In this document: piece by piece, positions 795-25,192 of the stretch | How positions within the stretch are numbered: position 1 is the stretch's first letter | Layout of the letters: each line of letters starts with the position of its first letter | From: a virus | Length of the DNA: 31,545 nucleotides | IMG/VR virus record: IMGVR_UViG_3300025168_000374 | Location: 1 to 31,545 of that record | Strand: one strand, 5' to 3' | The notes under the pieces: generated by a model | The model's database searches: none | What the model was told of the DNA's origin: nothing | What the model saw: the letters and a program-made list of their open reading frames with translations, nothing else | Program-made: the position numbers and the translations under genes

Positions 795-2225
795 ATGAAT
801 TATAAATTTAAAACTAAGCCTTACGAGCATCAGCTTACGGCTTTAGAAAAATCGTGGAATAAAGAAACGTATGCCTATTTTATGGAAATGGGTACGGGTA
901 AAACTAAAGTATTAATTGATAATGCTTCCATGCTTTATGATAAAGGCAAAATAAATGGACTTTTAATTGTTGCACCTAAAGGTGTTGTGGGCACTTGGTA
1001 TAACCAAGAGCTGCCAACACATCTTCCAGACCATGTTGAAAATACGACAATATTGTGGCAAGCAAATATTACAAAAGGTCAACAAGAAAAATTAGATTCT
1101 TTATTTAAAATAGGAGAAGAACTCCATGTTTTAATTATGAATGTTGAAGCATTGAGTACTCCCAAAGGAGTAGATTTTGCATCTAAGTTTTTAGTGTCTC
1201 ATGATACTTTAATGGTTATTGATGAATCAACTACTATAAAGAATCCTAAAGCACGAAGAACTAGAAATATTGTTAGACTTTCCACTCAAGCTAAATATAG
1301 ACGAATAATGACAGGATCTCCTGTCACTAAAAATCCATTGGATTTATTTAGTCAATGTTATTTTTTAGATCCTTTTCATTTAGAACATGAATCTTATTAT
1401 TCATTTAGAACTAGATATGCTATTATGAAGACGGCCCATATATCTGGACGTTCCATTCAATTAGTTTCTGGTTTTAAAAATTTAGAAGAACTATCAGATA
1501 AATTAAAATCTTTTTCTTACCGTGTATTAAAAGAAGACTGTCTTGATCTACCTGATAAAGTTTTTATTAAAAGACAAATTACTTTATCTCCCGATCAAAG
1601 AAAGTTGTATCAACAGATGAGAAAAGAAGCTTTAGCTATTTTAAATGGAAAACAAGTTACCACGGTTAATGCATTAACTCAGTTAATGAGACTTCATCAA
1701 ATTACATGCGGGCATTTTACTGCGGATGATGGAACGACTCAAAGAATTCCAAATAACCGAATTAGTGAGTTAATGGATATATTAGAAGAAACAGAGGGTA
1801 AAGCTATTATATGGGCTCACTACCAATGGGATATAAAAGATATTATTAAAGAAATTAATAAAGTTTATGGTCCAGGATCCGTGGTCGATTATTATGGGTT
1901 AACACCTCAAGATGAAAGACAGCCCAATATTAAGAAATTTCAGTCCGACCCTAAGTGCCGATTCCTTGTAGGAACACCCTCTACGGGCGGCTATGGCATT
2001 ACTTTGACGGCTGCAAACACCGTAATTTACTATTCTAACGGATATGACCTAGAGAAGCGATTACAGTCCGAGGACCGTGCGCATCGAATTGGACAAAAGA
2101 AAGCTGTCACTTATGTAGACATCAATGCGCAAGATACCGTGGATGAAAAAATTGTAAAATCTCTGCGTAAAAAAATTAATATAGCTTCTGAAGTTCTTGG
2201 TGAAGAACTTAGATCATGGATATGA
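795..2225 (+). CDS. SNF2/superfamily 2 DNA helicase or translocase
   Basis: The 476-residue protein carries the helicase motifs in order: a YEHQ element near residue 10, Walker A MGTGKT at 32-37, motif II DEST near 143 followed by IKNP, motif III TGSP at 173-176, and near the C-terminus GYGITLT and the motif VI-like HRIGQ around 430-434, typical of SNF2/Rad54-type enzymes. Such proteins use ATP to move on double-stranded DNA; small phage versions are thought to act in replication, recombination or fork remodelling. It is about the minimum size for two RecA-like lobes with no added domains. It starts the plus-strand transcript and its last codons overlap the following oxygenase gene. A copy of its last seven codons is found again at 2871-2890. 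Confidence 0.88.
   Translation: MNYKFKTKPYEHQLTALEKSWNKETYAYFMEMGTGKTKVLIDNASMLYDKGKINGLLIVAPKGVVGTWYNQELPTHLPDHVENTTILWQANITKGQQEKLDSLFKIGEELHVLIMNVEALSTPKGVDFASKFLVSHDTLMVIDESTTIKNPKARRTRNIVRLSTQAKYRRIMTGSPVTKNPLDLFSQCYFLDPFHLEHESYYSFRTRYAIMKTAHISGRSIQLVSGFKNLEELSDKLKSFSYRVLKEDCLDLPDKVFIKRQITLSPDQRKLYQQMRKEALAILNGKQVTTVNALTQLMRLHQITCGHFTADDGTTQRIPNNRISELMDILEETEGKAIIWAHYQWDIKDIIKEINKVYGPGSVVDYYGLTPQDERQPNIKKFQSDPKCRFLVGTPSTGGYGITLTAANTVIYYSNGYDLEKRLQSEDRAHRIGQKKAVTYVDINAQDTVDEKIVKSLRKKINIASEVLGEELRSWI
2202..2221 (+). repeat. 20-bp direct repeat, copy 1 (helicase 3' end)
   Basis: The sequence gaagaacttagatcatggat is the end of the helicase reading frame (E-E-L-R-S-W and the first two bases of the Ile codon). 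It recurs exactly at 2871-2890, and the match extends to the two G bases three and two positions upstream. The two copies flank the 2OG oxygenase gene, 669 bases apart. Confidence 0.95.
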
Positions 2226-2866
2226 TGGAACAAAATATATATCCGTTATTTGCAAAAGTTTTATACTTCTCTATTTTGGAAGATCTTGATCTTACTAAAA
2301 TCAACAAGCTAGTAGAAAAATTAAATTTTGAAAAAGCTGGAGAAAAAAGTGTTAACGATATTTTTAATATCTCAGATATATCTCTAGATAAACAAATCTT
2401 AAATAATAAATCCTTTAAGTTTCTTAAAAAAATTATTGAAAAAGAATTTAAGGCCTATAAAAATAATGTCTTGCAATATCATAATACTGATTTTAAAATA
2501 ACGACTTCATGGATAGCAAGAAGTCAGCCTGGTCAGGCTTCTAATTATCATAACCATAGTAATTGTTTATACAGTGGTATTTTATATCTTGCTACACCCC
2601 CTAATTGTGGTGGTATTAGTTTTTTAAATTATTTTAATAAGGAAACAATTAAAATAATTCCTACTAAATATACTTTACATAACTCCAAAGAATTTACATT
2701 TCATCCTAAAGCAAAAACGATTTGTTTTTTTCCATCAGATATCCATCATAAAATATTACCTAATCATTCAAAGGAAGTAAGATTTTCTTTAGCATTTAAT
2801 TTTTTTCCTAGTGGAAAACTAGGTCATGACAATATTGATAGTTCTGTAAATATAAAGGTAATGTAA
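2216..2866 (+). CDS. 2OG-Fe(II) oxygenase, putative (216 aa)
   Basis: The C-terminal half has the double-stranded beta-helix pattern of the putative 2OG-Fe(II) oxygenase group often found in marine phages: YHNHSNCLYSGILYL with metal-ligand candidates H112 and/or H114, then FFPSDIHH with distal His 177 or 178, then R189 in EVRFSLAFN, the usual 2-oxoglutarate carboxylate binder. Such enzymes couple oxidation of 2-oxoglutarate to hydroxylation of a substrate, unknown here. ATGs at 2216, 2222 and 2225 are possible; 2222 overlaps the helicase TGA as ATGA. The gene lies between two copies of the helicase 3' end, implying later insertion. It is related in fold to the operon at 15920-21320 but transcribed from the opposite strand. 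Confidence 0.8.
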   Translation: MDMMEQNIYPLFAKVLYFSILEDLDLTKINKLVEKLNFEKAGEKSVNDIFNISDISLDKQILNNKSFKFLKKIIEKEFKAYKNNVLQYHNTDFKITTSWIARSQPGQASNYHNHSNCLYSGILYLATPPNCGGISFLNYFNKETIKIIPTKYTLHNSKEFTFHPKAKTICFFPSDIHHKILPNHSKEVRFSLAFNFFPSGKLGHDNIDSSVNIKVM

Positions 2867-13452: not shown

Positions 13453-13616
13453 TAATCTAAAAAGAAGCTTCTAGCTTCTATCTCTTGTTTTAATTCTTCT
13501 TGAAACGTTGTGTTTAATTTCTCTAATACCGCATCTAAATCTCTTACTAAAGATTGCGATACGTCTACGCTATACTCATCGCTTGCTCGAGTTAAGGATT
13601 GAACTATCTTTGCCAT
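13452..13616 (-). CDS. Small helical protein, 54 aa
   Basis: The frame starts MAKIVQSLTRASDEYSV and ends EELKQEIEARSFFLD, stopping at 13452-13454. It is predicted to be helical throughout, with no membrane segment. Both ends share bases with neighbouring genes (TAATG on each side), which strongly supports translation. It fills the only gap in an otherwise continuous series of coupled virion genes. Function unknown. Confidence 0.6.
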   Translation of the reverse strand: MAKIVQSLTRASDEYSVDVSQSLVRDLDAVLEKLNTTFQEELKQEIEARSFFLD

Positions 13617-15802
13617 TATCTTCTTCCTCCTGCATGTACATCTAACCTAAAAGTTCCCATTTTCCAATTAGAATCTACTGCCGTGTTTGATATTTTAACA
13701 GCCACCGATCTTCCTCTTGCTCTACAAGATTGATAATTAGTACTCGACGTAATAGTAAAAGGACCTAAACTAGAACTTGCTGCCGTTTGATTAGGGAAAT
13801 TTCTTAAATCTAATTCAACAATGGTATTTCCAGCCTGAGTTATAAAGTCGGGTAAGAATCTACTCACTCTCATAATATGTTCTCCATCTCCTCTGAACGT
13901 AATTCCTTGTTTTTGATCTTGAGTAATATCAAAATCACCCGAAAGAATATTAGCTGCAATCGCGCTTGTCACTCCTCCTTTAATTTGATTCACTCCTGTT
14001 TCGTGTTCATAGTAAATAGTCGTACCATCGGTATTACCCGTGACATCAAAGGACGCATCTGTGCTAGCATCATAATAAGTTGCATGAGGCAAACCAAAAA
14101 TAGCTGAATCAATCCAAGTACTTCTTGGAAAAACTGAACTAGCATTTGTATACCAAATAGGTCGATTGGATGTTGAGTCTAGATAACTATAAACCACACA
14201 TCGATCGACAACGTTAGAAGCAGACGTGGGATAAAACCACATCACTTCACCAAAGAGATTATTAATTCCACAATAAATAAATTGATTTGAAGTGGTATTA
14301 AGGTCATCATAAACATAGTCTTCTACGAAACAATCCATGGATTCCAATTTACCAGTAAATCTAAAGAAACCATTATCTGACATCCAGTAAGCAGCACCAT
14401 CCACTTCAACCGCTGCGTTCTTACCGATCAATCCACAGTTAGTTCCAACCTGTTCATAAGCAAAGGTAAAAGGTTGACCCACAAATCTCATGGTAAATAA
14501 GGAAGTATCGGTCCATACGTAAAGTGCATTTCTACCAAGTTTAGCTCCCATGATCCGTGATCCAGCGGCCAGTCGCTGTGTACCAGCACTATTCGTTGCC
14601 GTAGGTGCCCAAGTATTAATATCCTCTTGAGAAGAAAATCGTATAAACATATCGTCTTGAGTTGTCGTGTCACCAATCGTAGTTTCTGTTCCAAATAAAA
14701 CTAAGTGACGATCGGGAGTAGAGACTAACATATCTCTAGATGCGGTTGGTGCACCCGATACAATCGTAGCTCGTGTTGATGTGGCATTTGATGCATCTGA
14801 ATCCCATTCAAAGACAGCTCCATTAAAAATTAAAGCGAGAAGCGTACTTCCTAAATTGTCCAAGGACCATAAACCAGGTTCAGCAACTTTATCCGTTGTT
14901 GAAGCTGCTTGGTTCCATGCAGAATAATCACTGGTATTGGTTACCGTGGCTCCATTCGAATGAGCAGCTCTAGTTGTACCTCTTACTGCTCTTGTTATTC
15001 CTGTTAGATCACTTCCTGAAACTCCAGTATAAGAAATTTCTTCTGTACCTACTTGAATATAGTTTGTTCCCGTTGTTGGAAATCCAACCACAGAGGTTAG
15101 AGTAATGCTGGTTCCTGATCCTCCAGTTCCATAAACATTATCTCCTAAAGCTCCATTTAAAGTTGTTGTTCTTGGACCAGATACGGTACCACCAAACTGG
15201 GATATACCCCATCCATAAACTCCAACTTGTTCAGCTGGACCCACTGGGTAATACCATTTAACTGAAAGGTCTCCATCAGTAGCCGTTGCACTTGCAGTAG
15301 ATCCCATTGTAATAGTAACTGAAGTAGCATTGACGACTTCAGTTATCATAAATTTTTTATCATCAAAATCAGATGCAGAATAACCCGACCCTGTGGGTGG
15401 TGTAACATTTTCAAGAAGTAAAATATCTCCTGCTGTCATTCCTGCGGTAGTAGATAAAGTAATTGTAAGAACAGCAGATCCGTTGGTAGAAGCTAACTTA
15501 TCTGTTAAAGCTCCAAAATCTGTTTTAATGGGATGAATGTCATAATAGACTCCTCCAGAATAAGCGTATAAAATTCGATTGGTTCCAATGATGGCATATT
15601 TAATACCCTCTTTGTTGACCATTTGATGAAGAGCACGGGCAGCGCCCGTTAAGGCTTTGTCTCCTAATTGAGACCAGCCTCCTATTTTTTCAGGTGTACC
15701 ATATCTAAAACGAACATTTTCCCCTCCAGTCCACTGTGCCTCAGCTCCTGTTGCGGTTAGTTGTTTGTTAAATCCTGGTAAAAAGCCTATCTTTTGTAAC
15801 AT
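13616..15802 (-). CDS. Tail protein, possible gp10-like tail hub/stabilisation protein, 728 aa
   Basis: The N-terminus reads GFLPGFNKQLTATGAEAQW followed by NVRFRYGTPEKIGGW, a signature of large marine phage tail proteins that I compare to the P22 gp10 'phage stabilisation' hub. The rest is beta-rich with repeated short blocks compatible with a beta-propeller, plus an inserted segment (about residues 95-185 and 215-290) containing TGVSGSDLTGITRAVRGT, seen in tail fibre linkers. It is longer than P22 gp10 (about 470 residues), partly through these insertions. It lies directly downstream of the oxygenase/halogenase operon and upstream of the small virion genes. A role at the connector or tail tip is inferred. 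Confidence 0.55.
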   Translation of the reverse strand: MLQKIGFLPGFNKQLTATGAEAQWTGGENVRFRYGTPEKIGGWSQLGDKALTGAARALHQMVNKEGIKYAIIGTNRILYAYSGGVYYDIHPIKTDFGALTDKLASTNGSAVLTITLSTTAGMTAGDILLLENVTPPTGSGYSASDFDDKKFMITEVVNATSVTITMGSTASATATDGDLSVKWYYPVGPAEQVGVYGWGISQFGGTVSGPRTTTLNGALGDNVYGTGGSGTSITLTSVVGFPTTGTNYIQVGTEEISYTGVSGSDLTGITRAVRGTTRAAHSNGATVTNTSDYSAWNQAASTTDKVAEPGLWSLDNLGSTLLALIFNGAVFEWDSDASNATSTRATIVSGAPTASRDMLVSTPDRHLVLFGTETTIGDTTTQDDMFIRFSSQEDINTWAPTATNSAGTQRLAAGSRIMGAKLGRNALYVWTDTSLFTMRFVGQPFTFAYEQVGTNCGLIGKNAAVEVDGAAYWMSDNGFFRFTGKLESMDCFVEDYVYDDLNTTSNQFIYCGINNLFGEVMWFYPTSASNVVDRCVVYSYLDSTSNRPIWYTNASSVFPRSTWIDSAIFGLPHATYYDASTDASFDVTGNTDGTTIYYEHETGVNQIKGGVTSAIAANILSGDFDITQDQKQGITFRGDGEHIMRVSRFLPDFITQAGNTIVELDLRNFPNQTAASSSLGPFTITSSTNYQSCRARGRSVAVKISNTAVDSNWKMGTFRLDVHAGGRR

Positions 15803-15847: not shown

Positions 15848-15916
15848 TCAACTCATTATAAAAGAGGCGTAGAAGACCTTTGTGGTGGAAAAATCCCCCA
15901 CGCCAGCCTTGACCAT
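15848..15916 (-). other. Intergenic element with 22-codon ORF and imperfect hairpin
   Basis: The 117-base gap 15803-15919 holds a 22-codon ATG frame (starts MVKAGVGDFSTT, ends ASFIMS) beginning four bases after the stop of the oxygenase gene. A second frame here is open without a start codon. The region also has an imperfect stem (15882-15888 with 15895-15901, one mismatch, AT-rich loop), a competing GGCGT/ACGCC pairing (15866-15870 with 15900-15904), and a perfect TATAAT on the minus strand (15855-15860) that has no -35 partner. It may be an end-of-operon or leader structure for the tail gene, or a tiny gene. Confidence 0.3.
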
Positions 15917-15919
15917 ACT

Positions 15920-16564
15920 TTATTTTTTAGGATCAATCAACTTATTAAAATTTTGAAACCAACCTGGAAGTCCTAAATGAGGTCGTCCATCAAAAAGATT
16001 ATGTTTTGCGCCTTTAGTTTTATTATTATTATAGTGTAAAAAAACCTGTGCACATTCTTTACCTTTAAACTTATTTCTCCAATGCTCTAACTCACACCCT
16101 CGATACACCAACATATCTCCTGGTTTTAAATCTACCTTAATTCCTTTTTTTCCATATTTACCCGAAGGTTCAATATAGATACTCCATAGATCTCCCCCTA
16201 AATTCATAGTCGTTGAAATTTCACAACTAAATCTATCTTTGTGGCGCTGAAGAGTATTTCCTTTTTTATATATTCTTGCATAGCTATAGGCTGGATTTAA
16301 TTTTAATTTGGTATTCTTTTCCATAAGGGGGTGTAACTTTAATAACAAAGTTTCCATGGCATTATCGGCATAGTGACAATAGGTGTTTTCCACTTGTTTA
16401 TCACCATACCTACCTATCATTGCTTCATAAGGAGAAATATATCTTTCTTTTAAACAAGTATCATAAACTTGTTTTTTCATTAAAAAATAATTGTAGATAA
16501 AAGTGGCTAAATCTTTTGAGATAGCTTGTCTAAGAACAATATATTTATTTTTTTTAAAACTCAT
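15920..16564 (-). CDS. 2OG-Fe(II) oxygenase, 214 aa
   Basis: A complete small 2-oxoglutarate/Fe(II) oxygenase. The iron-binding HxD is H108/D110 in LQRHKDRFSCEISTT, and the distal His is H161 in CELEHWRNKF, preceded by PGDMLVYRG, the usual strand before the distal ligand. The carboxylate-binding residue is less clear; R163 or a residue in AQVFLHY are candidates. The N-terminal 90 residues are helical and lysine/tyrosine-rich. It is the last gene of the eight-gene operon, and its ATG overlaps the preceding TGA (ATGA). Substrate unknown; prolyl or other peptidyl hydroxylation and small-molecule hydroxylation are all possible in this fold. Confidence 0.82.
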   Translation of the reverse strand: MSFKKNKYIVLRQAISKDLATFIYNYFLMKKQVYDTCLKERYISPYEAMIGRYGDKQVENTYCHYADNAMETLLLKLHPLMEKNTKLKLNPAYSYARIYKKGNTLQRHKDRFSCEISTTMNLGGDLWSIYIEPSGKYGKKGIKVDLKPGDMLVYRGCELEHWRNKFKGKECAQVFLHYNNNKTKGAKHNLFDGRPHLGLPGWFQNFNKLIDPKK

Positions 16565-17070
16565 AATCCAAAAATATCTTTTTCGTTTTCCTCACATCTT
16601 AATTCTAAATTTAAAGAGATTCGTTGTTGAGTACTGGAAGTCATTGGTCGATGACTTAAAAATCCAGGGAAAATTAACATGTCAAAATTTTTAGGTTCGA
16701 CATACCAAGCTTGTTGATAGAGTTCAAATTCAACTCCATAATCCTTGATGGTTTGTAAATAAATAACGCAATTAATGTTCGCCGTCTTTGTATGACTATG
16801 CCACAACGTTCTATGATCAGCAGGCCCGCTAAAATAACACCATACCTTAAAATTTTTATCCTTAAAGGTAAAAGGATTTAATATTTTTTTACTTTCTTTA
16901 ATAAATAAATCATATAGATAATCTTTATATTTTGTAAAGAGTCTAAAATTGTATCCCGATCCCGTGTCTTTATGTTTAGAATTTAAAATATCTTTTATGA
17001 GCTCTTCTTTTTTATTTTTTAATTGTTTTTTTAAATTTAATTTATAGACGGGTCTAGATTTATTAAGCAT
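16561..17070 (-). CDS. 2OG-Fe(II) oxygenase-like protein, 169 aa
   Basis: The beta-helix core has TLWHSHTKTANINCVIYL (candidate ligands H91, H93), FDMLIFPGFLSHRP (distal H140) and QQRISLNLEL (R150, probable 2OG binder), the pattern of the putative 2OG-Fe(II) oxygenase group that uses HxH-like spacing rather than HxD. I start it at ATG 17070, which overlaps the upstream stop by eight bases; an in-frame upstream extension to 17154 lies wholly inside the preceding gene and has membrane-like residues that do not belong to this fold. It is shorter at the N-terminus than its paralogue at 17063-17695 and quite diverged from it. Confidence 0.75.
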   Translation of the reverse strand: MLNKSRPVYKLNLKKQLKNKKEELIKDILNSKHKDTGSGYNFRLFTKYKDYLYDLFIKESKKILNPFTFKDKNFKVWCYFSGPADHRTLWHSHTKTANINCVIYLQTIKDYGVEFELYQQAWYVEPKNFDMLIFPGFLSHRPMTSSTQQRISLNLELRCEENEKDIFGL

Positions 17071-17695
17071 CTTTAACGATCCCTTTAGGTACAGCCATGA
17101 TATTCCAATGAATAAATCGAAAAGGTTCAATTCCAGGATCCACGGAAAACCCATGTTCTAAATAACCTGGAAAAATAATTAACCTACCAGGAGCTGCTTT
17201 ATAATGAATGACATCAGTGCCGTGATAAATTCCTTTTAAAGAACGGTCCAAGTTTAAGTTAGTTGCTCGAGCTCCAGTTCGTGGATCATAAAAAATAGGA
17301 TAAGAAGTTTTTTCACTGGCTTTTAAAAAATAGAGTCCTGCGACGTGTTGATTCCCATGTATGTGTGCTGTATGATGACCTCCTCCTTTTTGAGAAAATT
17401 CTTGAACCCACATTTCAGAGAAGAGAGTAGTATATGCTTTCATATTATACCCATGCTCCTCTAAAAACTCCCAAGATTTTTGACCTACATATTTTCTAAA
17501 ATCTATAAAATCATTATCTTTAAGTAAGGGGGGAGAATGATGAGATGTGCCAAAATCTTTCGTAGTTTGAATGTTTTTTTTATCTCTAGTTCTTGCCTTT
17601 TTAATATATTTATTACAAGCTTTGTTTAAAGATTTAACAAACTCTGTTTTGTCTTCGGACCATACAGGGGTTCTAAAATATTCATCTTTGAGCAT
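17063..17695 (-). CDS. 2OG-Fe(II) oxygenase, putative (210 aa)
   Basis: This is a full-length member of the putative 2OG-Fe(II) oxygenase family: HTAHIHGNQHVAGLYFL (H111, H113), IFYDPRTGA, then GRLIIFPGYLEHGFS (distal H181) and PFRFIHWNIMAVP (R193). The FYDPR element after the first ligand strand and the length are typical of the family. The gene begins inside the last 14 bases of the halogenase gene, so the two are coupled in translation. Such a close partner may act on the same substrate as the halogenase. Confidence 0.83.
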   Translation of the reverse strand: MLKDEYFRTPVWSEDKTEFVKSLNKACNKYIKKARTRDKKNIQTTKDFGTSHHSPPLLKDNDFIDFRKYVGQKSWEFLEEHGYNMKAYTTLFSEMWVQEFSQKGGGHHTAHIHGNQHVAGLYFLKASEKTSYPIFYDPRTGARATNLNLDRSLKGIYHGTDVIHYKAAPGRLIIFPGYLEHGFSVDPGIEPFRFIHWNIMAVPKGIVKDA

Positions 17696-19166
17696 TTTTT
17701 AAAATTGTAAAAATTGTTTTTTCTTTTTTAACTAATTTTTTACAAACTTCCTTTCTTTGTTGGAGTTGATTAACGGGACTCACAAAAGATTTTTTAATAT
17801 CTTCTATGTCTTCGGTGCTATTAACAGTTAGACTAGGAATATCCGTTGGAGCCCAATGCATGCCCGCTGCTATACAATGGAGACCTCCGCTAACTGGGAA
17901 TGAAAAATCTTCACTTTGATTTAAAGCTGCAACTTGAAAACCATGAACATATTCAGGTTTTAAATTAATAAGAGATTCACTCCAATTTTTATTTAAACAA
18001 GATCTCCAATAAGGAGTATCATCTCTATGGGATAAAGCATAGTGTAAAGCCACAAACTCTGCCCAGGATCTAAACATTCTTTTACAACTGTGATTAAAAA
18101 TATCTTTGTCCCATTGAGAAACCTTGTTCCTTTGTAAATTTCTAACTAAACTTATTAAAAACTCATGAACAGAAAATAAACCATTACTTTCAAGAGGTTC
18201 AATAAAACCAGCAGAGAGACCAATTGCAACTACATTCTTAACCCATACTCTATTATGAAGTCCCACTCTCATTTTTATATTTTTAAACTCTAAATCTTTT
18301 TGTTTTAAATGTTTTTTAAATTCTTTAAGCGCGGTAGCGTCATCAACAAATTTACTTGAATATACATATCCAGTTCCTATTCTAGACCATAAAGGTATAT
18401 TCCACACCCAACCATTTTCTATGGCTGTACAATTAGTATAAGGCACCAACTCTTTCTGTTTATTTTTATATTTAATGCGCGTGACCCAAGCAGAATCGTT
18501 GGGTAAAATATCAGCATAAGATTCAAAAGGTTCTTTTAAAGATTTGTCTAAGAGTAAAGATTTGAAACCAGTGCAATCTATATATAAATCTGCTTTATAT
18601 TTTTTATTAAGAGATACAATCCCATTTTTATTTTGTTCTACAGACACAACGTCATCTATGATGTGTTTAACTTTTTTACAGTAATAATCTTTTAACCATA
18701 TTCCAAATTTAGTAGCATCAAAATGATAGGCATAATCTAATTTATGACTAAATTTATTTTCATTAACATAAGCCATCTGAAGAGGATAATTACAATCGGC
18801 ATAATCCGAATAAGGTGTTTTAGGAAACAATATTTTTTTAAACCACCAATCATTTAAAAAATATTTATTCCCCTCCGTTACAGGAGATCCAAAAGGATAG
18901 TGAAAAAATTCTCCTTTTTTATAAAAATCTGTAAATCTTATACTTAGTTTATAACTTCCATCTACATGTTTTAAAAAATCTTCATCTTTGATTTTTAATA
19001 ATTTCATCCATCTCTGTATCGGCAGAATGGTACTTTCCCCTACTCCTATGGTAGGAATATTTTTTGATTCAATTAAAGAAATAGAGTGTTGTGGAAATTG
19101 GGATTCTAAAGTAGCTGCCGTCATCCACCCCGCACTGCCTCCTCCTACTATTATAATTTTAGTCAT
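17682..19166 (-). CDS. Flavin-dependent tryptophan-halogenase-type enzyme, 494 aa
   Basis: The protein has the three hallmark features of flavin halogenases: the FAD-binding GGGSAG at 8-13 (IIVGGGSAGWMTAATL), the GWVWNIP motif at 252-258 that separates these enzymes from monooxygenases, and a lysine K73 in GSYKLSIRF at the position of the catalytic lysine. EPLESNGL (about 323-330) carries the Glu usually placed near the chlorinating site, and YHFDATKFGIWL also fits. Length is normal, so it is probably functional. It would use reduced FAD, oxygen and halide to halogenate an electron-rich ring, possibly tryptophan or an indole/phenol. ATG 19166 is chosen because it overlaps the previous stop by eight bases. 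No flavin reductase gene is visible. A marine viral halogenase (VirX1 of cyanophage Syn10) is known. Confidence 0.9.
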   Translation of the reverse strand: MTKIIIVGGGSAGWMTAATLESQFPQHSISLIESKNIPTIGVGESTILPIQRWMKLLKIKDEDFLKHVDGSYKLSIRFTDFYKKGEFFHYPFGSPVTEGNKYFLNDWWFKKILFPKTPYSDYADCNYPLQMAYVNENKFSHKLDYAYHFDATKFGIWLKDYYCKKVKHIIDDVVSVEQNKNGIVSLNKKYKADLYIDCTGFKSLLLDKSLKEPFESYADILPNDSAWVTRIKYKNKQKELVPYTNCTAIENGWVWNIPLWSRIGTGYVYSSKFVDDATALKEFKKHLKQKDLEFKNIKMRVGLHNRVWVKNVVAIGLSAGFIEPLESNGLFSVHEFLISLVRNLQRNKVSQWDKDIFNHSCKRMFRSWAEFVALHYALSHRDDTPYWRSCLNKNWSESLINLKPEYVHGFQVAALNQSEDFSFPVSGGLHCIAAGMHWAPTDIPSLTVNSTEDIEDIKKSFVSPVNQLQQRKEVCKKLVKKEKTIFTILKNAQR

Positions 19167-19659
19167 CGGTAAAATAATTAAAGTTAATAACATATCGTAT
19201 GGGTTCTGTTTGAGATGTTATAGCTCTATGTAAAACATCACTATCAAAAACCAACATTTTATTAGCAACGGCTTTTATAAAAATAATTTTATTATTAATC
19301 TTGAGTTCTGTTCCTCCGTCACAATTATTTAAATAAAGAATGGCAGCTTTACATTTTAAATTGCTATCTCTATGCCATTTTGATTTATTAAATAATTTAC
19401 TGATTAGTAAATTAGCCTGTACTCTTAAAGGAGCTGTGGCTTTTAATTGGTTTAATATAGGAAGTATTAAAGGTGCATAAAGGTGAGACGCAATGTTCAA
19501 TCGCTGGTAAAAACCATAACTAAAAAATATCTGAGTATCTTTTTTAGCTCCTGTAAAAGAGTCTCTTCTTCTCCAGGGAAAGTCTTGGTCAAGAATAGTT
19601 TGTTTAAGCTTATTAAAAAAGTCTTTATCTAAAAAGTGGGTATAAGTTTGATAACTCAT
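19159..19659 (-). CDS. 2OG-Fe(II) oxygenase, prolyl 4-hydroxylase-like, 166 aa
   Basis: A short 2OG-Fe(II) oxygenase with all expected residues: H96 and D98 in SKWHRDSN, GGTELKINN on the following strand, distal H144 in SDVLHRAI and R155 in PIRYVINFNY. It is near the minimal length for the fold. The gene directly precedes the halogenase and overlaps its start by eight bases, while its own ATG overlaps the previous gene as ATGA. Such spacing argues for a joint product. Substrate is not predictable from sequence. Confidence 0.82.
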   Translation of the reverse strand: MSYQTYTHFLDKDFFNKLKQTILDQDFPWRRRDSFTGAKKDTQIFFSYGFYQRLNIASHLYAPLILPILNQLKATAPLRVQANLLISKLFNKSKWHRDSNLKCKAAILYLNNCDGGTELKINNKIIFIKAVANKMLVFDSDVLHRAITSQTEPIRYVINFNYFTDD

Positions 19660-20288
19660 TTAAACGGATCTCCAACATGCCATGAGACCAGCGAGTACCG
19701 AACTCCTTGTCTTACAGGTTTAACTCGATGCCAAACAAAACTTGGAAAAACAATGATACTTCCTTTAGGTAATATTTCTATTGCTTTTTTTAAATGTTGA
19801 GATTCATCTCTTAGAGGTGGATCATAGTCTCTAAAATCAAATTCTAGTTCCCCACCTTTATATTCTGAACCATCCGTTAATTGACACGTCATAGATAATT
19901 TTCTAACCGTACCATCGGAATTAGGTTCACCAAAACTGTCACAATGCCAATCATAGTATTGGTTTAATTTATATTTAGTAAATTGACATGCTTGTGAATA
20001 TTTAATTTGAAAATTCCAACCCGACTCTTTATTTGCTGCCTTAAGATAAGGGTGTATTTCTTTATAAATCCAGCGATCGTCTAACCAAGTTACATTTGAA
20101 TTTCGTTTATATTTTAAATCTCTAATTTCGTCTTTATTAAGAGGTTCTTTATTAAAATTTCTTCCTTTGCCAAACCTACCCGTAAGAGCCATAGATTCTT
20201 TTTTTTCTGAAGCATATTTAATAACTTCATCACAAAATCGTGGTGTCAGTGCAGATTTAAAATACCAAAAATAATGAGATAAATTCAT
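19656..20288 (-). CDS. 2OG-Fe(II) oxygenase, PKHD/prolyl 4-hydroxylase type, 210 aa
   Basis: The clearest oxygenase of the set. It has YYDWHCDSFGEP (H115, D117), RKLSMTCQLTDGSEYKGGEL, KGSIIVFPSFVWHRVKPV (H187) and GVRYSLVSWHVGDP (R197), the order and spacing of PKHD-type hydroxylases such as YbiX. The WHxD and FPSFVWHRV blocks are fully conserved, so it should bind iron and 2-oxoglutarate. These proteins are common in marine T4-like phages. Overlaps on both sides are four bases (ATGA). Confidence 0.88.
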   Translation of the reverse strand: MNLSHYFWYFKSALTPRFCDEVIKYASEKKESMALTGRFGKGRNFNKEPLNKDEIRDLKYKRNSNVTWLDDRWIYKEIHPYLKAANKESGWNFQIKYSQACQFTKYKLNQYYDWHCDSFGEPNSDGTVRKLSMTCQLTDGSEYKGGELEFDFRDYDPPLRDESQHLKKAIEILPKGSIIVFPSFVWHRVKPVRQGVRYSLVSWHVGDPFK

Positions 20289-20830
20289 ACTAATTCAAAC
20301 CATCCTGTTGCTATGTATTTTTCTTCTGTTGGAGAGATAACACCTTGATGAGGATGTGTGAAAAAACTAGGCCACATATATAAATATCCTTTTTTACTTT
20401 GTAAAGTAACTTCTTGATAAGGAAAATAAGTACCTCCTTTTTTAAGATCATTACAATACAACATATAAACTAGTTCTCTTTTAGAACTAGAAACATCAGT
20501 TCTTTCATAATGTAGTGCAGGAAATCCTTGGCCTTTTTTATAATATTGAATCATATTAATAGTAGAAGTTCTAACGGGACTTTCTAGGTTGTATTTAGCT
20601 AAATACTCTTTTACATATTTACTTAAAATTGAAAAAAATTCTTTTAAACTTTTATTGGTAGTTTCATTATAGAAGAGTACATCGGTAGAATCTTTAATGT
20701 TTTTATTAATAATTCCAGCTCCTATCATTCCAGGAGTTTTATATTCGATATTTTTTTTATGATATTCAATAATATTGTCACATACTTTTAAAGGCACTTT
20801 ATATTTTTCTATAAAATTAAATGTATTCAT
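20285..20830 (-). CDS. 2OG-Fe(II) oxygenase, prolyl 4-hydroxylase-like with HxE, 181 aa
   Basis: The core contains FPALHYERTD with H107 and E109 replacing the usual HxD, VYMLYCNDLKKGGTYFPY (GGxxxFP as in prolyl 4-hydroxylases), GYLYMWPSFFTHPHQG (distal H159 or H161) and EEKYIATGW, where K171 would bind 2-oxoglutarate. HxE is a tolerated variant in this superfamily. The N-terminal half is helical. The start overlaps the preceding gene by 14 bases. Confidence 0.78.
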   Translation of the reverse strand: MNTFNFIEKYKVPLKVCDNIIEYHKKNIEYKTPGMIGAGIINKNIKDSTDVLFYNETTNKSLKEFFSILSKYVKEYLAKYNLESPVRTSTINMIQYYKKGQGFPALHYERTDVSSSKRELVYMLYCNDLKKGGTYFPYQEVTLQSKKGYLYMWPSFFTHPHQGVISPTEEKYIATGWFELV

Positions 20831-21320
20831 AAGTTATAGTTTGTACAAAGTTTAAATCTTCTTTTTGATCATTAGTTAAGTAATAAAGCTGTGTGGAAGG
20901 AAATAAAACAAACTCATTAGTTTTTAAAGGAAGGGTCCAACTACATCCTTTTCTTCTATTATTATCATAATGAATGACAACAGAACAGTTATTGACTTCT
21001 ACACCATATAATAAAGTATAGTCTGGGGAGTTTTTTAAATCGACAGGATTAATATCTAATAAAGGAAGAGTGTTTTGATGAGGTGAATAAATACTACCCC
21101 ATGTTTTTTTATTTACTAGTTTTAAATTATATTTAAGTTGAAGATGTTCACGACAATATATATTTAATGCATCCCATTCTTTTGAAAATAAAAATGTTTG
21201 GTTGTGTATTTTAGAATGTAAAATGTGATGAGCTAATTCACTTCTATTAATTTCAAAACCTTTCGGTGTTGAAACCTTTCCGTAATACAAACTTATTTCT
21301 GTTAATACTTTCTTTTCCAT
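20817..21320 (-). CDS. Divergent double-stranded beta-helix protein lacking the usual iron site
   Basis: A 167-residue protein whose C-terminal half shows the beta-helix pattern of its neighbours (LLYGVEVNNCSVVIHYDNN, WTLPLKTNEFVLFPSTQLYYL, NFVQTITYEYI), but lacks a clear HxD/E...H triad: where the distal His would be, the sequence is STQLYYLTN. An HYD in VVIHYDNN lies at an unusual place. It may be a non-catalytic or differently acting member, or a scaffold for the oxygenases. I choose ATG at 21320; GTG at 21326 is the alternative. It opens the operon just downstream of a candidate promoter, with hardly any leader. Confidence 0.6.
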   Translation of the reverse strand: MEKKVLTEISLYYGKVSTPKGFEINRSELAHHILHSKIHNQTFLFSKEWDALNIYCREHLQLKYNLKLVNKKTWGSIYSPHQNTLPLLDINPVDLKNSPDYTLLYGVEVNNCSVVIHYDNNRRKGCSWTLPLKTNEFVLFPSTQLYYLTNDQKEDLNFVQTITYEYI

Positions 21321-21333
21321 ATCCACCAGCTAT

Positions 21334-21369: not shown

Positions 21370-21831
21370 TTAGGAAATGAGATTAGTTAAATCCCAAGAG
21401 GAATTAGATTCATTCCATCTGTAACATTGACTAGCGGCATTTTGGTCGTCTGTTAAAGTAGGAGCATCTCCTATAGGTGAATGCCATTGCGCATCTGTTG
21501 TACTTTTAACCCAAGAAGGATGAGGTTTTGGTCCCCAAAAGATTTGATTGACTTCATCCCATTCTCCACCTGGGACTGCAAAATTTCCTCTAAATGCTTT
21601 AGATTGATCATCGGCTAAGACATCAGTCCCCTCAACACAATATGTATTTCTACGAGTATTGTAGGATGTTTGAATCCATTTATTTGCGGGCCAATTATGA
21701 TGTGTTTCTAAATATTGTTGACCAACACTTTCTTCTTCAACACCTTCATTATTTAAAACATCTTTATTATCTACAGTTAAAACTGTAAGAACTCCGTTAC
21801 CTTCTGATTCTATTTTTGCAAAATGTGCCAT
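21370..21831 (-). CDS. Conserved marine phage tail-associated protein, 153 aa
   Basis: The opening MAHFAKIESEGNGVLTVLTVDN and later WIQTSYNTRRNTYC, then WGPKPHPSWVK and CYRWNESNSSWDL, match a small tail-associated protein I recognise from T4-like cyanophages and other marine phages. It is beta-rich and rich in Trp and Asn. The gene starts two bases after the stop of the glycine-rich fibre gene, so it probably works with that fibre as a chaperone or a fibre part. No catalytic motif is known. Confidence 0.65.
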   Translation of the reverse strand: MAHFAKIESEGNGVLTVLTVDNKDVLNNEGVEEESVGQQYLETHHNWPANKWIQTSYNTRRNTYCVEGTDVLADDQSKAFRGNFAVPGGEWDEVNQIFWGPKPHPSWVKSTTDAQWHSPIGDAPTLTDDQNAASQCYRWNESNSSWDLTNLIS

Positions 21832-21833
21832 GA

Positions 21834-22694
21834 TTATTGAAATTTATACCTTAAAATTACGACTCCACTTCCGCCACCACCAGCGTTACCTCCGCCACCA
21901 CCACCTGTATTTGCGCTTCCAGCGCCACCATTCGTTCCTCCTCCACCAGCTCCTGCTGCTCCAGCTGTATATGGTTGACCATGACTTGGGCCTCCACCAC
22001 CGCCTCCGCCTCCGCCGCCTCTTGCAACGGGACTTCCGCTAATACATGAAGTTGCTCCAGTACCTCCAGCTCCTGCTTGAGATGCGCCTGGAGAACATAC
22101 GATTCCAGGATAACCAACTGTGGCTCCGCCACCGCCGCCGCCTGGATAACCTGGTGTGGCTCCAGTTCCTCTACCACCTGTAGTTCCTTGTGCTGGACTC
22201 ACGGGAGGTGTATTTCCTGCTCCTCCTACGCCTACGTAACCTGCTCCTCCACCTGAACCACCAGCTACACCAGGAAAAGGACATTCTGTTCCGCCATTAC
22301 CACCTGCGGCTGAAGTTATACTTGAAAAAACTGAATTAGCGCCAGCACCACCAACTGTAATTGGATATCCTGTAGCACTTACAGCTATACCTCCACCACT
22401 TTTAGCTATTGGAGATCCTGTCCATGCGCCACCATTAGATTCTCTGTATCCACCAGCACCGCCACCACCAGCATAATTTGGACCAGCAGCTCCTCCTCCA
22501 GCTATGACTAAATAATCAACGGCTGTATCGCCACCACAACCCGCTGTTGAAACACAAAAGGTTCCTGGACCTGTAAATGTATGGACTTTAAAATTTGTAT
22601 CAACAGTTGTTATTGTTCCACCTGAAGCAACCACATATGTTGACGGTATGCCTCCACCAGAGCCAAAACCTAGTACTTGATAACCAAAAGACAT
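21834..22694 (-). CDS. Glycine-rich tail fibre/adhesin-like protein, 286 aa
   Basis: After a short N-terminus, VHTFTGPGTFCVSTAG and DYLVIAGGGAAG lead into a glycine-rich body with many GG to GGGGGGG runs and PGYPGG repeats, ending GSGVVILRYKFQ. This resembles the glycine-rich fibre-tip proteins of phages, in which polyglycine helices pack together (as in T4-like gp38 adhesins). Five Cys (47, 53, 138, 200, 217) are unusual for a tail tip and may form disulphides or bind metal. It is probably the receptor-binding protein. Its Gly/Pro repeats make it a possible substrate of the prolyl-hydroxylase-type enzymes coded next to it. Confidence 0.75.
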   Translation of the reverse strand: MSFGYQVLGFGSGGGIPSTYVVASGGTITTVDTNFKVHTFTGPGTFCVSTAGCGGDTAVDYLVIAGGGAAGPNYAGGGGAGGYRESNGGAWTGSPIAKSGGGIAVSATGYPITVGGAGANSVFSSITSAAGGNGGTECPFPGVAGGSGGGAGYVGVGGAGNTPPVSPAQGTTGGRGTGATPGYPGGGGGGATVGYPGIVCSPGASQAGAGGTGATSCISGSPVARGGGGGGGGGGPSHGQPYTAGAAGAGGGGTNGGAGSANTGGGGGGNAGGGGSGVVILRYKFQ

Positions 22695-23992: not shown

Positions 23993-25192
23993 CTATGTAA
24001 CTCTCGTCCAACTACCTGTTTGAGTAGCTGTTTTTTTACTATAATTACCTGTTTGTGCAGCAGTTACACGACCCCATCCAATTGGTGCTACGCCGATAGG
24101 AGACACAGTAACAGTTGCTGACACTCCCGTCAATCCCATTACATCTGCTGGTGCAATCGCTCCCACTGCACCTGTTGCTGAAACTCCTGTTAATCCCATT
24201 GTAATAGAATTAGGAGTAATAGCTCCTACTGAAGCCGTTGCCGAAACTCCTGTTGGTGAAACTGTTGGATTAGATGAAATGCTTATAGCACCTGGAGCAC
24301 TCGTTGCGCCAAGTCCAGTTAATGAAGTAGTATTATCTGATCGTGCAGTTGGAGCACCTACGGCCGCTGTTGCTGAAAGTCCAGTTAAAGGAATTCCTTC
24401 TCCAATAATAATGGCACCTACTGCTGAAGTGGCTCCAAGTCCTGTTAATGTAGTTGTATTATCAACTCGTGCAGTTGGAGCACCTACGGCTCCTGTTGCA
24501 GCAACTCCAGTTAACCCCATTACATCTGCTGGTGCAATTGCACCCACAGCAGCTATTGCTGAAAGTCCTGTTAAAGTTTCTGTAGCTGAGTCAACACTTC
24601 CCCAACCGTTTTCACCCCAATCTAAAGTTCCCCAACCAGGTTTTATTTCAGGTGCAATTGCACCCACAGCAGTTGTTGCTGAAACACCTGTAAGAGAAAC
24701 TACAAGGCCTGATTCGCCCCAATTTTCTGTTCCCCATGTATCCGAACCCCAACCTATTTCATTAAAAGGTGTGACTGTACCAAGAGCTGTTGTTAAAGAT
24801 TGTCCTGTTAGAGATTGTGTAACAGTTGATTGATCATTCCAAGTATTTGATCCCCATGTAAGAAGTCCCCACGTACTAGGATCTACTGTATTTGCTTGCC
24901 CACCCATACCAGAATGAATAGAACAATAATAATATAAAGTGGGTGCTGAGGCAGCAACAGTTATCTGAACTTGTGTGGAACTATTTACTGTTACGCCTGT
25001 TGTGTATTCAGAACCTCCACCATGAGTTCCGTCGCTAGTTGTAGAAAATCTAAAAGGATGAGCTGAAGGATAATTAAATACATAAGTATAACCTTCGCCA
25101 AGATTTAAAGTATCTTGTAAAACTCCGTCTATATAATATTTATTACCAGAACCAGGATTACTTACTGTGACTGTGTAAGTTCTAATAGCCAT
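23993..25192 (-). CDS. Fibre-like protein with cupredoxin-like N-terminal domain and LTG repeats, 399 aa
   Basis: Residues 1-97 look like a small beta-barrel with possible type 1 copper ligands H45 (SAHPFRFS), C90, H93 and M96 (YYYCSIHSGMGG); the Cys-x2-His-x2-Met spacing equals that of amicyanin. The rest is a repeat region: about ten units built on LTGxxATxAVGAI (residues 127-368), interleaved with Trp-Gly blocks such as GWGSDTWGTENWG and GWGTLDWGENGWG. The tail ends SWTRVT. No signal peptide is seen. It is probably a tail fibre whose N-terminal domain binds copper or is only structurally related to cupredoxins. Its start codon lies inside a strong hairpin. Confidence 0.65.
   Translation of the reverse strand: MAIRTYTVTVSNPGSGNKYYIDGVLQDTLNLGEGYTYVFNYPSAHPFRFSTTSDGTHGGGSEYTTGVTVNSSTQVQITVAASAPTLYYYCSIHSGMGGQANTVDPSTWGLLTWGSNTWNDQSTVTQSLTGQSLTTALGTVTPFNEIGWGSDTWGTENWGESGLVVSLTGVSATTAVGAIAPEIKPGWGTLDWGENGWGSVDSATETLTGLSAIAAVGAIAPADVMGLTGVAATGAVGAPTARVDNTTTLTGLGATSAVGAIIIGEGIPLTGLSATAAVGAPTARSDNTTSLTGLGATSAPGAISISSNPTVSPTGVSATASVGAITPNSITMGLTGVSATGAVGAIAPADVMGLTGVSATVTVSPIGVAPIGWGRVTAAQTGNYSKKTATQTGSWTRVT
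24089..24814 (-). repeat. Coding repeat array, LTG(V/L)xAT motif, about ten units
   Basis: Units of 15-23 residues begin with LTGV/LTGL followed by ATxAVGAI or ATxAVGAP. At DNA level several units share stretches, for example two copies each of GTTAATCCCATTACATC-like and GCAGTTGGAGCACCTA blocks on the plus strand. Unequal recombination within it would change fibre length. Confidence 0.8.

Follow-up and report, generated by a model that had tools for sequence, protein, structure and literature searches.

What a phage gains from keeping a flavin-dependent halogenase together with a row of oxygenases beside its tail genes is the question raised by the virus record IMGVR_UViG_3300025168_000374. 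The window, i.e. the whole stretch of DNA analysed here, is this entire IMG/VR record of 31,545 bases. It contains a cassette of eight overlapping minus-strand genes (15920-21326), which encode one flavin halogenase (HAL), six oxygenases of the 2-oxoglutarate (2OG) and Fe(II) type and one relative of these (A1). We consider it about an even call that this operon is a variable post-translational modification cassette acting on the Gly-rich tail adhesin of the phage itself.

Organisation of the cassette

The genes are listed from A1 to A8, with coordinates referring to the window.

A1, 20817..21326, minus strand: best read as a conserved pseudo-2OG oxygenase, with a predicted double-stranded beta-helix fold and no iron ligands
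A2, 20285..20830, minus strand: 2OG-Fe(II) oxygenase (PF13640, 29.2 bits) with HxE (H107, E109) and H159/H161; variable module
A3, 19656..20288, minus strand: 2OG-Fe(II) oxygenase (PF13640, E=4.9e-15) with H115xD117, H187 and R197; core
A4, 19159..19659, minus strand: 2OG-Fe(II) oxygenase (PF13640, E=1.9e-5; phrog_274, E=1e-33) with H96xD98 and H144; variable module
HAL, 17682..19166, minus strand: flavin-dependent halogenase (PF04820, E=2.4e-109); optional module
A6, 17063..17695, minus strand: PF13759-type 2OG oxygenase (E=2.3e-11) with H111xH113 and H181; core
A7, 16561..17070, minus strand: PF13759-like protein (E=2.5e-4; phrog_81, E=1.4e-10) with H91xH93, H140 and R150; variable module
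A8, 15920..16564, minus strand: 2OG-oxygenase-like protein (phrog_2954, E=1.4e-49) with H108xD110 and H161; core

With the most plausible starts, consecutive genes overlap by 14, 4, 4, 8, 14, 8 and 4 bases, and the start codon of A1 is GTG; if the longest open reading frames are used instead, the overlaps at two junctions become 35 and 92 bases. An earlier note on this DNA had described eight same-strand genes overlapping by 4 to 14 bases as a coupled operon inside a tail module. With these starts the description holds and the setting in the tail module is supported; the end of the operon moves from 21320 to 21326. In relatives, neighbouring cassette genes overlap at 378 of 431 junctions, with modal lengths of 14, 4 or 8 bases, and the overlaps are therefore not a matter of chance.

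Conserved gene order and the halogenase slot

Relatives were collected in a halogenase scan (385 found, 80 kept) and in a scan with A1 (at least 595). Because the locus samples were ordered by their similarity to the query, the fractions given below are not census values. Most loci of the halogenase scan showed the order up153-A1-(A2)-A3-(A4)-HAL-A6-(variable)-A8, in many cases with dn728 next, and protein identities were mostly 40-75%. The common order in the A1 scan was up153-A1-A3-A6-A8, with additional oxygenases inserted at fixed places. The conserved unit is thus [Gly-rich tail-fibre gene]-[up153]-A1-A3-A6-A8, which is present in most fetched relatives and in the SAR11 phage isolate HTVC023P. 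A gene order restricted to this phage had been named in the earlier note as a finding that would speak against its claim; the same order was found in relatives.

The halogenase is an optional module, with repeated gains or losses at a single slot. Among 49 A1-centred loci, the gene directly after A3 was A6 in 35 and a halogenase in three, and none of the 25 up153-centred loci with at least 3.5 kb downstream contained a halogenase. Where the halogenase co-occurs with A1, it stands directly after A3 in 54 of 61 loci and after A4 in the other seven. On the A3 tree its presence requires about 20 changes, at least nine of which are forced by well-supported branches; the repeated gain or loss is deduced from these changes together with the fixed slot. 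The cassette without halogenase, as in HTVC023P, is the commoner form, and the halogenase is not its centre. The idea of a complete pathway built around one halogenase, as put forward in the earlier note, is therefore not supported.

Most other genes inserted in relatives encode further 2OG, cupin or JmjC-type proteins. Furthermore, a carbamoyltransferase (E=4.5e-50) was found in one group of relatives and a sulfotransferase (E=1.6e-12) in one locus. Both could act on hydroxyl groups, which would fit hydroxyl-making oxygenases. The halogenase relatives in the loci L042, L051 and L063-L066 occur in other gene contexts; in L063-L066, close relatives (71%) lie among unrelated small genes with no cassette oxygenases.

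The Gly-rich tail-fibre gene and up153

Two genes precede the cassette, with a gap of 43 bases between A1 and up153:

up153, 21370..21831, minus strand: Trp-rich (5.2% W) tail-locus protein (phrog_7759)
up286, 21834..22694, minus strand: Gly-rich tail-fibre/adhesin-type protein (phrog_2295); proposed substrate

A Gly-rich gene precedes up153 in 121 of 125 loci, compared with 252 of 1672 genes overall, and A1 follows directly after up153 in 61 of the 66 up153-centred loci. Further tail-type genes precede up286. The protein up286 contains 60% G over a stretch of 50 amino acids; it shares phrog_2295 with gp62 of HTVC023P and a protein of Sf-CH11, both of which match Pfam Gly_rich_2 (PF21722). No Pfam match was obtained for up286 itself, and no sequence match to any solved adhesin. 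For up153, an AlphaFold2 (AF2) model with a predicted local distance difference test (pLDDT) score of 92.9 was obtained, and the protein matches phage proteins including one of S-SM1; no match in the PDB was significant. The fibre chain of cyanophage Pam3 was considered as a relative of up153 and dismissed (E=1.3, not evidence).

The enrichment of Trp in up153 was also dropped as a signature of the halogenase, since Trp amounts to about 5.8% with or without a halogenase. Differences in composition and k-mers of up153 and the adhesin by halogenase presence are small and confounded by ancestry and were not used; for the adhesin, the likewise confounded difference lies slightly beyond the permutation limit.

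The oxygenases and their iron-less relative

The Pfam cut-offs were exceeded by A2, A3 and A6, whereas A4 (26.0 vs 27 bits) and A7 (21.8 vs 27) fell just below. The nearest solved structures are a bacterial prolyl 4-hydroxylase/procollagen-proline dioxygenase for A2 (E=2e-4), the PKHD-type hydroxylase PiuC and prolyl 4-hydroxylases for A3 (E about 2e-6), and 3bvc and 2rg4 for A6. Judged by their sequences, A2, A3, A4 and A8 have the predicted HxD/E...H iron triad, A8 by motif only. In A6 and A7, HxH...H stands in place of this triad; it is invariant in the PF13759-type set and also present in the solved 3bvc. The iron-ligand motifs are conserved in the relatives of A2, A3, A4, A6 and A8, and the relatives of A7 are all near-identical. 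A loss of metal binding in most of the oxygenases, likewise named beforehand as a point that would count against the operon as a functional unit, was not observed, and ligand motifs are kept in six.

For A8 there was no Pfam match at all, including none to the Pfam ferrochelatase. Its best profile match in the PDB, a Tet-like dioxygenase, is not significant (E=0.23), and profile-profile comparison yielded no convincing match to A3. The assignment is based on the motif, of which H108, D110 and H161 are invariant in 16 aligned sequences. Proteins with 2OG-oxygenase motifs are filed in PHROG under 'ferrochelatase' (2954, 3531), the usual annotation of A8, and under 'DNA endonuclease V' (274), and the labels were carried into deposited genomes, e.g. 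HTVC023P, S-SM1 and Sf-FP1. These names are likely annotation errors that shaped published readings.

A1 had been taken for a divergent relative of the oxygenases. With regard to the fold this stands: the AF2 model (pLDDT 82.6) shows the predicted double-stranded beta-helix of 2OG-Fe(II) oxygenases and retrieved 3bvc as the best Foldseek match (E=2e-6), followed by PHD2 and prolyl 4-hydroxylases. However, A1 is better described as a separate family, as neither an HxD/E motif nor a distal His is conserved in 36 aligned sequences; H119-Y-D121 of the window is not conserved, and Tyr148 occupies the region of the distal His. No match of A1 was found in Pfam, PHROG or NCBIfam, and profile-profile comparison gave no convincing link to oxygenases, so that its place was resolved by the predicted structure instead. 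A1 is therefore best read as a conserved pseudo-oxygenase.

The halogenase

The closest solved relative of HAL is VirX1 (6qgm, E=1.1e-95). In an alignment of 19 halogenases including VirX1, G8-G10, K73, G252-W253, P258 and E323/E326 are invariant and W255 is nearly so, in agreement with the earlier remark that the key residues are kept. With its GxGxxG motif for flavin adenine dinucleotide, WxWxIP motif and putative catalytic Lys and Glu, HAL is classified by sequence as a flavin-dependent halogenase; the catalytic Glu is assigned by analogy with PrnA and RebH. In PrnA, a C-terminal lid (Y443, Y444, E450) binds the free amino acid. The sequence alignment of HAL with PrnA has a gap at this position, i.e. 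the lid for free tryptophan of the PrnA/RebH type does not align, which would suit a larger substrate than free tryptophan.

In the tree, HAL and podovirus-type relatives form one branch (support 100/100), nested in a phage-dominated clade of 29 rows with VirX1 (100/99). The halogenases of S-SSM6a, P-SSM2 and HTVC008M are long branches outside the VirX1 clade. A contig of a Myxococcota metagenome-assembled genome (L183:6001-7416) encodes a halogenase that is 53% identical to HAL and nested in the phage clade, and no cassette match was obtained for the genes around it. Altogether, 79 bacterial halogenase loci were compared with the profiles of the cassette oxygenases, and no neighbouring gene matched; these profiles derive from phages and could overlook bacterial enzymes. 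A cellular source of the cassette thus found no support.

Function of the cassette

If the adhesin is the substrate, the tail genes, up153 and A1-A8 would be expressed together late in infection. A1, as a non-catalytic member, would probably serve to bind the substrate or its partner enzymes. The core enzymes A3, A6 and A8, together with A2, A4 and A7, would then hydroxylate side chains of the proline, asparagine/aspartate or lysine type at the expense of 2-oxoglutarate and oxygen, and in the variant of the window HAL would halogenate an aromatic residue with reduced flavin supplied by the host. In other variants, the carbamoyltransferase or sulfotransferase might cap the new hydroxyls. The enzymes would remain in the cell, and the decorated adhesin would leave on the virion with altered receptor binding, stability or recognition.

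Modification of the adhesin is favoured because the cassette constantly adjoins a Gly-rich gene in two phage groups, because A3 and A2 come closest, among solved proteins, to PKHD-type and prolyl 4-hydroxylases, and because HAL aligns with a gap at the lid for free tryptophan. Scaffold-building enzymes are absent from the cassette genes examined, and carbamoyltransferase and sulfotransferase partners occur in relatives, which points in the same direction. The gain or loss of the halogenase at least nine times on the A3 tree is what would be expected for a swappable decoration. Moreover, the virion proteins named in the accessible part of the report on S-SZBM1 (PMC9146016) include neighbouring fibre genes and neither the halogenase nor its 2OG genes, as would be expected for enzymes that stay behind in the cell.

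The same enzymes could instead synthesise or decorate a small compound or a surface glycan, e.g. a sugar or amino acid carrying halogen and hydroxyl groups, with effects on the infected host or its competitors. VirX1 reportedly accepts small substrates in vitro, and a carbamoyltransferase is also found in some relatives of the cassette. Such a role was predicted by Iyer et al. for the S-SSM6a cluster (PMC7824862), and prnA alone has been read as a protection against antibiotics (PMC9964418). However, no nonribosomal peptide synthetase, polyketide synthase, aminotransferase or sugar nucleotide enzyme occurs among the cassette genes examined, the lid for free tryptophan is not aligned in HAL, and the S-SSM6a halogenase lies on its long branch outside the HAL clade with no Gly-rich tail gene near. 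Since the persistent linkage to the tail fibre is also left unexplained, this role appears unlikely. Hypermodification of phage DNA or nucleotides by TET-like oxygenases would agree with the non-significant best match of A8, but genes for a DNA methylase, a hydroxymethylase or a glycosyltransferase are missing from the cassette, the closest solved counterparts of A3 and A2 are PKHD and prolyl hydroxylases, and we know of no DNA halogenation by a flavin halogenase of the HAL type; we consider this highly improbable.

A further possibility is that unrelated auxiliary oxygenases simply gather as cargo at a site in the tail locus and have separate roles, e.g. in 2OG drawdown and nitrogen signalling or in DNA repair, with no joint product. 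Modulation of 2OG and nitrogen (PMC3037559) and DNA repair (PMC2984593) have both been proposed, a uvsY-2OG-uvsW arrangement exists elsewhere (S-B64), and the content of the cassette is variable. The fixed order A1-A3-A6-A8, the conserved overlaps of 14, 4 and 8 bases, the retention of a non-catalytic member and the similar neighbours in two phage groups make such an accumulation quite unlikely. Modification of host targets (ribosome, transcription machinery or surface) during takeover would be in line with cellular 2OG oxygenases that hydroxylate ribosomal proteins, according to the accessible part of the source (PMC4396695), and with the absence of the enzymes from the virion proteins named for S-SZBM1 in the portion available. 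The cassette, however, sits in the tail block linked to a Gly-rich gene, and its enzyme set varies quickly, unlike host-conserved targets; this explanation is therefore rather more doubtful still.

Several observations weigh against the tail adhesin as the target. Substrate and product of the cassette are inferred, as are the modified residues, the sequence of the reactions and the benefit to the phage, and the tail-fibre adjacency may merely mark a hot spot for cargo genes. The HxH in place of HxD makes the activity of A6 and A7 uncertain. The contents of Trp, Tyr and Pro in up153 and the adhesin do not readably track the presence of the halogenase, and up153 is also found next to tail genes where oxygenases are absent. 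A related halogenase of S-B64 lies outside a tail locus, and a further 2OG gene of the window (2216-2866) adjoins a helicase gene, distant from the tail genes. Finally, the Gly-rich proteins are not in the S-SZBM1 virion list as far as this list is accessible (PMC9146016); their place in the virion therefore rests on annotation.

In a broader and more tentative form, to which we give somewhat less than even chances, marine phages of different families would share an evolvable post-translational modification cassette acting on their own Gly-rich receptor-binding tail tip, by hydroxylation and, in some variants, also by halogenation, carbamoylation or sulfation. In the pelagiphage type it would be organised by a dead oxygenase, and VirX1 and many unexplained phage 2OG oxygenases would belong to it. 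For the natural substrate of VirX1 and for the role of the many 2OG oxygenases of marine phages, the adjacent Gly-rich tail-fibre protein offers one testable answer. If true, phages would go beyond the twenty amino acids in the chemistry of their adhesins, and some of the most common ocean viruses would have a new means of varying host recognition.

Borders of the operon and other genes of the window

At its far side the cassette is bounded by a structural gene. These and a distant oxygenase gene are:

terminator-like hairpin, 15866..15904, minus strand: 16 pairs and a T-run, directly 3' of A8
dn728, 13616..15802, minus strand: virion structural protein (phrog_3287, E=5e-97)
further PF13759-type 2OG oxygenase, 2216-2866, plus strand: overlaps a helicase gene (795-2225, phrog_62)

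Four terminator-like sites were found, compared with 2.2 +/- 1.6 in shuffled sequences; given this control, the hairpin adjacent to A8 is only suggestive of a terminator. In many relatives dn728 stands after A8 or close by. It shares 43-47% identity with proteins of HTVC027P, HTVC023P and 023Pt_psg01, and the identities to HTVC023P amount to 74% for A8 and 59% for A1. The structural genes of the window resemble those of HTVC023P-type pelagiphages, with shared genes and synteny to HTVC023P/HTVC027P. By this relatedness SAR11 is the likely host.

The pair of 2OG and helicase genes recalls the order UvsY-2OG-UvsW in S-B64. A repeat-rich protein of the tail module with many units of the GLSAT..VGAI type is encoded at 23993-25192 (minus strand).

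Comparison with other phages and known systems

The combination of halogenation and hydroxylation of a gene-encoded peptide is known from pathways for ribosomally synthesized and post-translationally modified peptides, which pair a tailoring halogenase and hydroxylase, e.g. MibH/MibO. The likeness is one of function; in these pairs a P450 acts as the hydroxylating partner, and a secreted peptide is made.

The earlier note knew of no described system of this make-up, which has to be qualified. Clusters of 2OG genes and halogenases have both been published for phages, as has one cluster that combines halogenase and 2OG genes in a different make-up, and many 2OG genes are known in cyanophages (PMC9602691, PMC3037559). 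In HTVC023P-type phages, 2OG oxygenases beside a 'ferrochelatase' (A8 in this study) were read as iron-related partners (Wittmers et al. 2022, PMC9599517). The phage type and the arrangement of A8 next to 2OG genes are the same as here; the word halogenase is absent from the text of that report, whose accessible passages treat co-located metabolic genes with A8 as a ferrochelatase and mention neither a tail-adhesin link nor a pseudo-oxygenase. In HTVC023P, four Gly-rich genes are followed by up153-A1-A3-A6-A8 (gp63-gp67).

The cluster of the jumbo cyanophage S-SSM6a was described by Iyer et al. 2021 (PMC7824862) as a system for secondary metabolites or a capsule. It resembles the cassette in that halogenase and 2OG oxygenase occur together, and a carbamoyltransferase is present there as in some relatives of the cassette. 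It differs by a nucleotidyltransferase, a HemK-like methylase, the distant halogenase and the lack of a nearby Gly-rich tail gene; neither carbamoyltransferase, HemK-like methylase nor a sugar-activating enzyme was found among the window proteins scanned. The distant halogenase of P-SSM2, like that of S-SSM6a, is not in a tail-fibre/2OG setting. In the T4-like pelagiphage HTVC008M, a Gly-rich gene and up153 lie beside opposite-strand homologues of A8, A2, A4 and A3, and its distant halogenase is encoded elsewhere beside a terminase gene. What still appears new is the linkage to the tail adhesin, the optional halogenase slot and the pseudo-oxygenase, of which no published account was found in the open literature, subscription papers being outside the search.

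Ten cyanomyovirus isolates possess a close halogenase (Sf-CH11, Syn10, S-RIM44, S-CREM1, Sf-FP1, P-TIM40, S-WAM1, S-SZBM1, Sf-FR1 and P-RSM6). In all of them, Gly-rich tail-fibre genes lie within a few genes of the halogenase, and 2OG, JmjC or cupin-type genes follow it. Between the Gly-rich genes and the halogenase, nine encode a small protein, and Sf-CH11 two 2OG genes. Pfam Gly_rich_2 is matched by three cyanomyovirus Gly-rich proteins, two of which also match PHROG tail-fibre families, and by one of HTVC023P. Over most of the genome of Syn10, only four genes proved to be Gly-rich, and three of these immediately precede the halogenase pair. VirX1 corresponds over its full length to the second gene of this tandem pair (locus L082), which is thus the VirX1 gene itself. 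The Syn10 locus differs from the window by these tandem halogenases, a small protein of phrog_1787 instead of up153 and the lack of A1; the halogenases belong to the same clade, and Gly-rich tail-fibre genes and 2OG oxygenases adjoin them in both.

The 2OG cluster in the tail locus of S-SM1 (GU071094), for which no functional unit was described, has neither a halogenase nor A1 and shares the Gly-rich gene, up153, A2, A3, an A4-like gene and two A8 homologues in one run. Cultured phages thus offer a natural comparison between loci with oxygenases only (HTVC023P, S-SM1) and those with a halogenase as well (Syn9/Syn10, S-CREM1, S-SZBM1).

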